From Halostagnicola sp. A-GB9-2 (lineage in GTDB: Archaea > Halobacteriota > Halobacteria > Halobacteriales > Natrialbaceae), in assembly GCF_030068615.1 (NCBI RefSeq), contig NZ_JASJOC010000001.1:558001-622000 (forward strand): DNA of 64,000 bases, in the 5' to 3' direction. Positions 46,651 to 51,640 of the stretch are shown piece after piece (positions within the stretch are counted from its first letter, which is position 1; each line of letters opens with the position of its first letter). The notes under the pieces were generated by a model. That model was given only the letters and a program-made list of their open reading frames with translations. It was not told the DNA's origin and ran no database searches. The translations under genes were made by a program, and so were the position numbers.

Positions 46651-46664
46651 TTGGAATATTCCAA
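46651..46664. promoter_or_regulatory. Perfect palindrome TTGGAATATTCCAA upstream of the HTH-10 gene
   Basis: The 14-bp palindrome lies 37 bases upstream of the start codon at 46702 and just before a TCTTTACGG box (46669-46677) that fits a leaderless start. Its arms (TTGGAA/TTCCAA) match those of the palindrome upstream of the amidohydrolase gene at 47661. The position directly upstream of the TATA-like box suits an activator or autoregulator. Confidence 0.6.
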
Positions 46665-46701
46665 AACCAGTCTTTACGGGCTGTTCGATAACACAATACT
46701 C

Positions 46702-47490
46702 ATGCAAGCTTTCGAATTCACGATTACGTACGAGAGGGGTGCCGACGAGTTGATGGACGTCTTCATCGAGAATCCGGGGCTGTATTCGAAGACGATCTCG
46801 TGTAACGTCTCCGATGGGACGATGTGGCGACTGGACGAAGTGACGGGACCGACCGAGTCGCTACTGGCCTACGACGACGTGATCGAGGGGTTACATCGGT
46901 GTACGAATCTCGAGGGCGTCGGCGGGTGCCAGATCGACTGGTCACACGAAGTGCTCGTCGAGACGGCAAATCGTCGCGTTATCTACTCGAAACAGTCCGA
47001 GGGCCCTGGCTGTCGATCGGTGCCGTACCTGGTGAGAGAGTCTCTCGGCGACGGGGCGCTGTTCCGCGCAGAACAGTATCACGATACGTACAAGTGGCGC
47101 GTCCTCGTCGAAAACGACGCATCGTTGAGCCCGATCTACGAGACGATCGACGCTCATCTCAGGTCGGGCCTCGAGCTACGATTCGAGCGCGTGGATCACT
47201 CGCCCGAGTGGGACGATCGCCGATCGGCCGCTGAGGATCTGTCCCACGAACAACGCGAGGCACTGCAAACGGCGGTGGAGTACGGCTACTACGAGTCGCC
47301 GCGTGAGGTATCCTTACAGGAAATCGCAAACGACGAGGGGATACCAGTCTCGACGCTCCAGTATCGGGTTACGCGTGCAGAAGCCTGGCTCGCGAAGCGC
47401 TACCTTTCGGGATTCGTCGAGGACCCATCGGAGTCGACTAACTCCGGCGAAGACGCCAGTCCCGAAAGCGAAATGTCGGTTTCCTCCTGA
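46702..47490 (+). CDS. HTH-10 (bacterio-opsin-activator-type) transcriptional regulator
   Basis: The protein has 262 residues. The N-terminal part (about 1-180) is the unclassified alpha/beta domain usual for this haloarchaeal family. The C-terminal HTH-10 domain (about 190-250) shows LSHEQREALQTAVEYGYY, EVSLQEIANDEGI and STLQYRVTRAEAWLAKRY. These proteins activate neighbouring genes in response to an unknown small molecule. Its own promoter and that of the next gene share a palindrome, which suggests direct regulation of the amidohydrolase. Confidence 0.85.
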   Translation: MQAFEFTITYERGADELMDVFIENPGLYSKTISCNVSDGTMWRLDEVTGPTESLLAYDDVIEGLHRCTNLEGVGGCQIDWSHEVLVETANRRVIYSKQSEGPGCRSVPYLVRESLGDGALFRAEQYHDTYKWRVLVENDASLSPIYETIDAHLRSGLELRFERVDHSPEWDDRRSAAEDLSHEQREALQTAVEYGYYESPREVSLQEIANDEGIPVSTLQYRVTRAEAWLAKRYLSGFVEDPSESTNSGEDASPESEMSVSS

Positions 47491-47596
47491 GTCAACTCGG
47501 TTTTCGGGATCGGTCGCCCAGTTCGAGTCTTCAGCACAATGAGACCGATTGATGAATCGGTGGAGAAACGACCAGCTGACAGCGACGACGACATCC

Positions 47597-47616
47597 CGTT
47601 TGGAACGTTCCAAACG
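47597..47616. promoter_or_regulatory. Perfect 20-bp palindrome upstream of the exported amidohydrolase
   Basis: CGTTTGGAACGTTCCAAACG is perfectly symmetrical and ends 44 bases before the ATG at 47661. The core TTGGAA-N2-TTCCAA equals the site at 46651-46664, and only the two central bases differ (CG instead of TA). It is the best candidate binding site for the HTH-10 protein encoded just upstream. Confidence 0.65.
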
Positions 47617-47660: not shown

Positions 47661-49157
47661 ATGAAGGAACCGACAACTGCTGATGGACGGACGGTATCGC
47701 GACGGAACTATCTCAAGCTCGGTGCCGGGACAGCGCTGTCGCTGCCGCTTGCCGGCTGTTTCGGATTCGGCGACGACTCGGCAACGGACATGTCCGGGTC
47801 CCCATCCGATGGCTCGTCCTTGACAATTATCAAGGACGGCACGCTGGTCCCCGTCGATCCCGACGTGGGCGTTCAGGAGCACGCGGACGTGTTGATCGAG
47901 GACGGAGAGATCGTCGAAATCGCCGATACCATCGACGAGGCCGACGCCGAAATCGTCGACGCGAGCGACGCCATTGTCCTCCCCGGGTTCGTCAACTCCC
48001 ACCTGCACACCTGGCAGGCGAGCGTCCGCGGCACCACCGGTGACTGGACGTTCTCCGAGTACCTCGAGTTGATGCTCGGCGATGTCAGCAGCCGGTATGA
48101 ACCCGAGGACGCGTATTTGGGGAACCTCTTCGGCGCGGTCGAGCAACTCCACACCGGAACGACGACGGTCTTGGACTGGTTCCACATCGCGAACTCCCCG
48201 GACCACACCGATCGGGCGATCGACGGACTTGAGGACGCCGGTATTCGGTCGGTGTTCGCTCACGGGCCACCCGGGGACGACGGCGATACGTGGTGGGAGG
48301 CGAGCACGGAACCGCATCCGTCCGATATCGAGCGACTGCACGACGAGCGGTTCCCGGCCAACGACGGGTTGGTGACGCTGGCGATGGGTATTCGCGGTCC
48401 CGATTACGCGACCGACGAGGTCGTCGAGGACGACATCACCCTCGGCCGAGAACTCGACATCCCGATCTCGATGCACATCGGCTCGCTCGGTCCGGGCGGC
48501 ATCTACAATCTCGAGGAACTCGATCTCTTGGGATCGGATCTCAACTACGTCCACGGGAACCGGTTCGAGCAAGAAGAGTTCGAATTAATCGGCGACTCCG
48601 GCGGCTCGATTTCGATCACGCCGGAGGTCGAAATGCAGATGGGAATGGGGATGCCGGTTCTCGGCGAGGCCATAGCGGCGGGCGCGACACCGACCCTTGG
48701 CGTCGACATCACGTCGAACGTCAGCGGCGAAATGTTCACCCAGATGCGGATGGCCCTGCAGGCGCAGCGAGCGCTCGACAACCAGCCGGCCGTCGAGCGA
48801 AACGAACAGATCGAATCGGTCTCTCTGGACGCCCGACGCGCGCTCGAGCTTGCGACCATCGAGGGCGCACGCGCACTCGGGATGGAAGACCGGATCGGCT
48901 CGATCACGCCGGGCAAGCGGGCCGACATCGTCTTGCTTCGTACCGACGACATCACCACCGCACCCGTTCACGACCCGGTCGAAACGGCGGTGTTCCAGGC
49001 GGGCACCTCCACCGTGGACACCGTACTGGTCGACGGACGTATCGTCAAACAAGACGGCGTGGTACACAACAAGGCGATCGAAACGCACTGGTCGGCGTTC
49101 GAACAGTCGGGCGCCGATATCATCGACGAGAGCGTCGTCGAGCCCGAACGCCCCTGA
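47661..49157 (+). CDS. Exported Tat-lipoprotein amidohydrolase
   Basis: The protein has 498 residues. The signal SRRNYLKLGAGTALSLPLAGC carries twin Arg at 14-15 and the lipobox Cys at 33, so the mature enzyme is anchored outside the cell. The amidohydrolase domain resembles the cytosine deaminase/chlorohydrolase (ATZ/TRZ, SsnA) group: GFVNSHLHTWQ (H-x-H), SMHIGS (His), YVHGN (His), GVDITSN (Asp), then the composite C-terminal part GKRADIVLL. It should hydrolyse or deaminate a heterocyclic or C-N compound. A Tat-exported member of this group is unusual, and a cytosolic paralogue lies at 50282. Confidence 0.87.
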   Translation: MKEPTTADGRTVSRRNYLKLGAGTALSLPLAGCFGFGDDSATDMSGSPSDGSSLTIIKDGTLVPVDPDVGVQEHADVLIEDGEIVEIADTIDEADAEIVDASDAIVLPGFVNSHLHTWQASVRGTTGDWTFSEYLELMLGDVSSRYEPEDAYLGNLFGAVEQLHTGTTTVLDWFHIANSPDHTDRAIDGLEDAGIRSVFAHGPPGDDGDTWWEASTEPHPSDIERLHDERFPANDGLVTLAMGIRGPDYATDEVVEDDITLGRELDIPISMHIGSLGPGGIYNLEELDLLGSDLNYVHGNRFEQEEFELIGDSGGSISITPEVEMQMGMGMPVLGEAIAAGATPTLGVDITSNVSGEMFTQMRMALQAQRALDNQPAVERNEQIESVSLDARRALELATIEGARALGMEDRIGSITPGKRADIVLLRTDDITTAPVHDPVETAVFQAGTSTVDTVLVDGRIVKQDGVVHNKAIETHWSAFEQSGADIIDESVVEPERP

Positions 49158-50281: not shown

Positions 50282-51640
50282 CTACAGATCCAGCCCCGCT
50301 TCGTCGATCAGTCGACGTCCGGACTCCACGAACCGGTCGAACTCCTCGCTCACCGCAGGGTTCAGGAGTTCGCCGTCGCGTTTGACCGGTTCGCCGTCGA
50401 CGAGCACCGTGTCGATGTGGGACGGATCCGACTGGAAGACGACGGTCTGGATGGGCGAGTGGGCGGGAGCCGTCGTGAAGTCGTCCGTTCGAATCGTCAC
50501 GATATCCGCGCGTTTACCGGGCGTGAGCGTGCCGATCTCGTCTTCCATGCCCAGGGCCTTCGCGCCCTCGATGGTCGCCATCTCGAGCGTGTCTCGGCAG
50601 GTCAGGCTCACGCTGGTGACCTCCTCGTCGTTCTCAAGCGTTTTCTGATTATCCAGCATTCGCTGGACCTGCAGGCCGACGCGCATCTGACTGGTCATGT
50701 CGCCGCTGATATCCGAACAGACATCGACGCCCCAGGTCGGCCGCCCGCCGGCCTCGAGCACCTTTCCGGTAACGGGGATGCCGTGGGCCATCTGCATCTC
50801 GACCTCCGGCGTCGCCGAGAAGGAGACGCCCTGATCGACGGCGTGTTGGATGTCCTCCTGAGAAAAGTGATTCGCGTGGGCGACGTTGACGTCCGGGCCG
50901 AGCATGTCCGAAATCGCGCCGAAGCCCTGGTAGTCCTCGCCGTAGATCGACGAGGGCCAGAGCGCGGCGCCCATATGAATAGTCGCGACGACGCCGAGGT
51001 CGCGCGCGAGTTCGAGATCGCTCCGGGCGACCTCCTCGGTCGTGAAGTCGGGACCGCGAAGCGCCAATCCGAGCGAGAGCAGGTCGTCGTCTTCGATTTT
51101 CTCCTCGCGGAGCTGTCGGACGTGCTCTTCGGGGTGGCTCTCAGTGCTGTCGAACCACCACGTCGCCGCGTCGTTTCCGGGCGGGCCGTAGGCGTAGACG
51201 GTCCGAAGCCCGGCCTCTTTCAGCCCGTCGACGGCCCGTTCTGCGTGTTCGGGTGTATTGATGGCGTGGGACCAATCCAGCGCGGTCGTCGTTCCCGTGT
51301 GGAGCTTCTCGAGCGCACCGAAGAGGTTCCCGAGGTACATATCCTCGGATTCGTAGAGCCCCGCGATGTTCCCCAACATGTCGTCGAAGTAATCGCCCAT
51401 GAGCGACCAGTCACCGGCGATCCCCCGCACCTGGGTCTGCCAGAGGTGGATGTGCGAGTCGACGAATCCCGGGAGAACGATCCGATCCGTCGCGTCGATC
51501 ACGTCGGCGTTCGACGCGGAGAGACCGCGCCCGATATCGACGATTTCGCCGTCTTCGATCAGGACGTCCGCGCCCTCGAGTTGTCCGATCTCCGGGTCGA
51601 GCGAGACGATTGTGCCGTTCCGTATGATTGTTCGTGACAT
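50282..51640 (-). CDS. Cytosolic amidohydrolase, paralogue of the exported enzyme
   Basis: The protein has 452 residues without signal peptide. The composite N-terminal part is followed by the barrel with GFVDSHIHLWQ (H-x-H), TIHMGA (His), VAHANHF (His), WGVDVCSD (Asp) and GKRADIVTI. Long stretches correspond to the exported paralogue (VRGIAGDWS against VRGTTGDWT; LHTGTTTALDW against LHTGTTTVLDW), so the two share chemistry and differ in location. It is divergent from the TetR gene; the composite operator TTTAC-N6-GTAAA-N2-TTTATC sits in its promoter. It ends 88 bases before the FAH gene and may be co-transcribed with it. Confidence 0.88.
   Translation of the reverse strand: MSRTIIRNGTIVSLDPEIGQLEGADVLIEDGEIVDIGRGLSASNADVIDATDRIVLPGFVDSHIHLWQTQVRGIAGDWSLMGDYFDDMLGNIAGLYESEDMYLGNLFGALEKLHTGTTTALDWSHAINTPEHAERAVDGLKEAGLRTVYAYGPPGNDAATWWFDSTESHPEEHVRQLREEKIEDDDLLSLGLALRGPDFTTEEVARSDLELARDLGVVATIHMGAALWPSSIYGEDYQGFGAISDMLGPDVNVAHANHFSQEDIQHAVDQGVSFSATPEVEMQMAHGIPVTGKVLEAGGRPTWGVDVCSDISGDMTSQMRVGLQVQRMLDNQKTLENDEEVTSVSLTCRDTLEMATIEGAKALGMEDEIGTLTPGKRADIVTIRTDDFTTAPAHSPIQTVVFQSDPSHIDTVLVDGEPVKRDGELLNPAVSEEFDRFVESGRRLIDEAGLDL

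Follow-up and report, generated by a model that had tools for sequence, protein, structure and literature searches.

Two palindromes in a 64,000-nucleotide stretch of the Halostagnicola sp. A-GB9-2 genome (contig NZ_JASJOC010000001.1, positions 558,001 to 622,000; hereafter the window, whose own numbering is used) are, on comparative sequence evidence, quite likely to be operators of the HTH-10/HVO_2928_N regulator encoded between them, with activation of the regulator gene and of an amidohydrolase gene as the favoured mode of control. The original prediction, that such a palindrome is a candidate recognition sequence for the neighbouring HTH-10 protein, gains support both from orthologous gene pairs and from the sites that paralogs have before metal ATPases.

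The regulator, the two palindromes and the amidohydrolase

The regulator (46702–47490, + strand, 262 aa) consists of an HVO_2928_N domain at residues 4–170 (Pfam PF24281, E 5.6e-60, 202.1 bits against a cut-off of 27) and an HTH_10 domain at residues 180–230 (PF04967, E 1.4e-13, 50.9 bits against a curated cut-off of 23.1) with the recognition helix PVSTLQYRVTR, in which residue 220 is Gln. It is one of two HVO_2928_N proteins in the genome. A Pfam scan of the regulator found neither PAS nor GAF, and the protein is not a Bat proper. Translation from an in-frame TTG (46651) would take the reading frame through the first palindrome; this start was set aside, as conservation of the N-terminus begins only with the ATG at 46702. 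AlphaFold2, given a two-row alignment, returned a model with a mean pLDDT of 60.6 (mostly ≤50 in the HTH part) that suggests two beta-alpha-beta-beta-alpha-beta units in the N-domain. A PDB fold search with this model found nothing at E ≤0.001, and a sequence search for a relative of solved structure found none. In view of the low pLDDT and the missing fold match, no conclusion rests on the predicted model.

Both palindromes lie where they were first described. Candidate operator 1 (46651–46664, no strand assigned) is the perfect palindrome TTGGAATATTCCAA, which starts at −51 from the regulator ATG and leaves a gap of 37 bases. Candidate operator 2 (47597–47616, likewise unstranded) is the 20-bp perfect palindrome CGTTTGGAACGTTCCAAACG, separated by 44 bases from the amidohydrolase ATG at 47661; its 14-bp core, TTGGAACGTTCCAA, occupies 47600–47613 and starts at −61. 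The window contains two exact copies of TTGGAANNTTCCAA, compared with none in 100 dinucleotide shuffles, and the whole genome (4,679,536 bases) also holds two copies, both at the regulator locus, so that the proposed genome-wide search for TTGGAA-N2-TTCCAA led to these two places only. The looser dyad TTGG-N6-CCAA is found 20 times in the genome versus 67 for a reversed control pattern; stray sites may be avoided. Four of the 20 dyads adjoin the only two HVO_2928_N genes. None is close to any other HTH_10 gene (nearest ∼1.9 kb), and among the 46 HTH_10 matches in the genome only the two with HVO_2928_N have adjoining sites. One-mismatch sites elsewhere in the genome (L091–L095) have no family members nearby. 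Across the order, exact TTGGAANNTTCCAA is present in 131 of 392 genomes, and the reversed control in a single one, the window's own.

The putative target (47661–49157, + strand) encodes a Tat-exported amidohydrolase of the PRK08204/TRZ-ATZ-like family (PF01979, E 5.9e-36; NCBIfam NF006056, E 1.3e-163, above cut-off). Its signal reads SRRNYLKL...LAGC, and a Tat motif is common to 16 of the 18 called homologs. The window holds a second PRK08204-family amidohydrolase gene (50282–51640, − strand) that has neither a Tat signal nor a preceding palindrome; the two amidohydrolase genes are separated by one for an FAA hydrolase. Near regulator relatives in Natrinema versiforme and Halobaculum roseum (L171 and L182) there are adenine deaminase genes, a possible hint at purine-like substrates.

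Conservation of the site in orthologs and paralogs

The ortholog group comprises 21 loci, with relatives of 51–66% identity; a related-locus search of genome contigs gave only two distant relatives. An amidohydrolase gene follows the regulator in 17 of these loci. The prediction was open to refutation by absence of the palindromes upstream of such gene pairs, and it held: a TTGG-N6-CCAA type site precedes the amidohydrolase in 17/17 (with one outer mismatch in 11), mostly at −60 to −62, as in the window, and in some at −49 to −55. Only 2 of 4200 random 200-bp stretches from the ortholog loci carry such a site at ≤1 outer mismatch. A site also precedes the regulator at −50/−51 in ten of the 17 (eight exact, two with one mismatch) and is lacking there in the other seven. 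The ortholog consensus is TTGGNA-YR-TNCCRA, in which the fifth and tenth bases are free and the last but one may be G. The core originally defined, TTGGAA-N2-TTCCAA, therefore stands for the two window sites but does not quite cover the variation in the orthologs, its AA/TT pair being stricter than the family needs. No TTGG-N6-CCAA site was found at three loci where the amidohydrolase is absent and a class III aminotransferase gene is adjacent (L060, L063 and L066), nor at L070, where no amidohydrolase was found either. In the three aminotransferase loci, which also have a RidA-like gene, a TTCG-GGAAGC-CGAA-like sequence upstream of the regulator, at about −52, replaces the TTGG dyad.

Because the motif itself had been the means of retrieving many loci of the wider family, a second spacing test used 63 relatives collected through protein similarity alone. 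A dyad with spacing 6 adjoins 28 of them; the other spacings between 0 and 14 give 0, 1 or 3. When one mismatch was allowed, spacing 7 also scored high, which was dismissed as a register artefact of CCAAA. Over all 100 regulators, 62 have TTGG-N6-CCAA versus 0.38 expected from DNA more than 1.5 kb away. Conversely, in the loci read, all 27 distinct TTGGAATATTCCAA sites (TA centre) that were found by pattern alone adjoin a family regulator, and 25 of them also a heavy-metal P-type ATPase gene. TTGGAANNTTCCAA sites with a CA or CG centre nearly always occur in the regulator–ATPase setting, those with AA, AT, GA or GC mostly elsewhere.

In two paralog groups the dyad, TTGGAATATTCCAA or TTGGCG-YR-CGCCAA, stands 51 bp before heavy-metal P-type ATPase genes. 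The second group, to which this genome's other HVO_2928_N gene belongs, has TTGGCG-YR-CGCCAA before a different P-type ATPase in 13/13 readable loci, one with a mismatch. Both ATPase types contain CPC and DMG motifs and are presumably Zn/Cd/Pb-type pumps. Contexts that carry the site thus include the amidohydrolase, two kinds of P-type ATPase and a divergent flavin oxidoreductase. Before the ATPase at this genome's other family locus (L104, G000:C1:293757-293792), two operator-like sites lie 22 bp apart, about two helical turns; such pairing recurs in L017 (1501 and 1523). Three plasmid records were read out of sample. Halarchaeum sp. CBA1220 (Gln helix) has a perfect TTGGGATATCCCAA at −52, and TTGGAATATTCCAA stands between the regulator and ATPase genes of Halalkalicoccus sp. 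FCH27 (Thr). The stretches read from Halomicrobium mukohataei, which encodes a Ser-helix regulator, contain no TTGGCG site.

Promoter position, specificity and rival readings

Operator 1 ends at −38 and adjoins the BRE/TATA region; a TATA-box-like TTTA (46673–46676, + strand) follows at −29 to −26 from the ATG, from which we infer a leaderless promoter. No clear TATA box follows operator 2 in the window. The 14-mer starts at −51 before the ATPases of both groups (distances that counted 48 run to a GTG one codon earlier) and at −50/−51 before regulators. The group B promoter consensus reads operator, CAAAG-like stretch (BRE region), TTAT at about −30 and start codon, and the TTTA of the window occupies the place of this TTAT. 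The site therefore keeps a constant distance from BRE/TATA, on its upstream side. Leaderless mRNAs make up 72% of protein-coding transcripts in Haloferax volcanii, for which TTWT has been proposed as the TATA motif (PMC4983044). The genes behind the sites described here are apparently leaderless too. A position just before BRE/TATA is the usual place of an archaeal activator and would suit contact with TBP/TFB; activation is the favoured direction because the spacing from the TATA box and the start codon is constant.

In the proposed mechanism, a regulator dimer would read TTGG...CCAA with its two recognition helices. Bound at operator 1, just upstream of BRE/TATA in the regulator's own promoter, it would be autoregulatory; at operator 2 it would control the downstream Tat-exported amidohydrolase. 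Activation would probably proceed by contact with TBP/TFB, and the Cys-containing N-terminal domain may provide the switch by sensing a ligand or a metal.

The same operators might instead serve repression, including negative autoregulation: the regulator would block TFB/TBP at the edge of the BRE until it is freed by a ligand. The closeness of operator 1 to the BRE would allow this, and autorepression is common among local regulators. A few relatives carry the site at −22 to −24, so that it covers the TATA-to-start region; a regulator bound there would obstruct the promoter, which suggests autorepression in those members, and the direction of regulation may therefore differ within the family. 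Sites such as TTGGCGATAGCCAA were seen at this distance from the regulator start in L075, L130, L131 and L074. However, the dominant site position is fixed upstream of BRE/TATA, the TATA boxes look weak, as would suit promoters in need of help, and Bat, DmsR and NarO, the HTH-10 relatives that have been characterised, act as activators (PMC11218638, PMC3184054). We therefore regard repression as a rather unlikely alternative to activation.

That another transcription factor controls these neighbours through the palindromes is much harder to sustain, and we consider it very improbable: the site travels with the regulator family across differing target contexts, its inner bases track a residue of the recognition helix, and the other HTH_10 genes of the genome have no adjoining sites. 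Short palindromes do arise randomly, and a terminator hairpin, the end of a mobile element or a restriction/methylation motif could look similar. Such an origin appears already contradicted by the comparative data and is extremely improbable, given that no shuffle reached two exact copies, that the reversed control is nearly absent from the 392 genomes, and that the sites keep a set distance from start codons and are not followed by a T-run.

For operators read by the regulator itself, the helix offers a further correlate. STL-x-YR is nearly invariant across the family, and residue 220 varies with the site: Thr goes with TTGGAA, Ser with TTGGCG, and Gln mostly with TTGGNAT or TTGGCG-A variants. 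Seven Arg220 members (STLRYR; L124, L127, L128, L129, L134, L137 and L142) have no clear TTGG dyad. A tree inferred from N-domain sequences alone requires no more than five changes at residue 220, so this covariation rests on few independent events. The broader proposal that all family members are dedicated activators throughout the haloarchaea, reading TTGG-N6-CCAA with one or two recognition-helix residues (216 and 220) setting the inner bases, seems to us evenly balanced. Such a setting would keep paralogs in one cell apart, here a TTGGAA regulator serving the amidohydrolase and a TTGGCG regulator the metal ATPase. In the N-domain, most ATPase-linked paralogs conserve His35, His46, Cys70, Cys76, Cys104, His109 and Cys156; the window regulator keeps Cys34, Cys67, Cys76 and Cys104 and lacks the His set. 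This residue pattern may point to metal sensing by the paralogs and to a different signal for the window regulator.

Relation to known haloarchaeal systems

In outline, local HTH-10 regulators that use palindromic operators are known. Our literature search, mostly outside subscription journals, yielded no description of this operator class, sensor domain or specificity pattern: no text contained TTGGAATATTCCAA, none described sites for the HVO_2928_N/HTH_10 subfamily, none linked HTH-10 proteins to metal ATPases, and HVO_2928 itself was mentioned solely in a transcriptomics paper. Haloarchaea have dozens of HTH-10 regulators, as the number of HTH_10 matches here illustrates, and very few have known sites. 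A fixed promoter position together with a readable helix-to-base rule would give direct and cheap predictions for the whole subfamily, likely activators of Zn/Cd-type efflux pumps among them, and specificity divergence between archaeal paralogs becomes testable through the TTGG-N6-CCAA site and the helix rule.

Bat of Halobacterium salinarum, the bop regulator, has the HTH_10 DNA-binding domain in common with the window regulator but carries PAS and GAF where the latter has HVO_2928_N. The bop site has the form ACC...GGT, unlike TTGG-N6-CCAA. Several genes, that of Bat among them, have upstream activator sequences to which Bat binds (PMC1885257). The NarO/DmsR-like activators are small HTH-10 regulators without PAS or GAF, as here, for which an HVO_2928_N domain is not reported. 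In Haloferax denitrification, a 12-bp semi-palindrome, CGAAYATDKTYG, lies upstream of target promoters, and mutagenesis showed that it matters for nos and nor; these studies did not identify its binding protein (PMC10062603, PMC11218638). Its half-site is CGAAC rather than TTGG, and it is placed 66–79 nt upstream of the ATG. In Halobacterium the Cu P-type ATPase YvgX is controlled by VNG1179C, an Lrp protein with a TRASH domain (PMC3551603). VNG1179C is likewise a haloarchaeal regulator of a P1B-type ATPase but belongs to an unrelated regulator family, whereas the paralogs described here are HVO_2928_N/HTH_10 proteins beside ATPases of the CPC type that have a DMG motif and resemble Zn/Cd pumps more closely.
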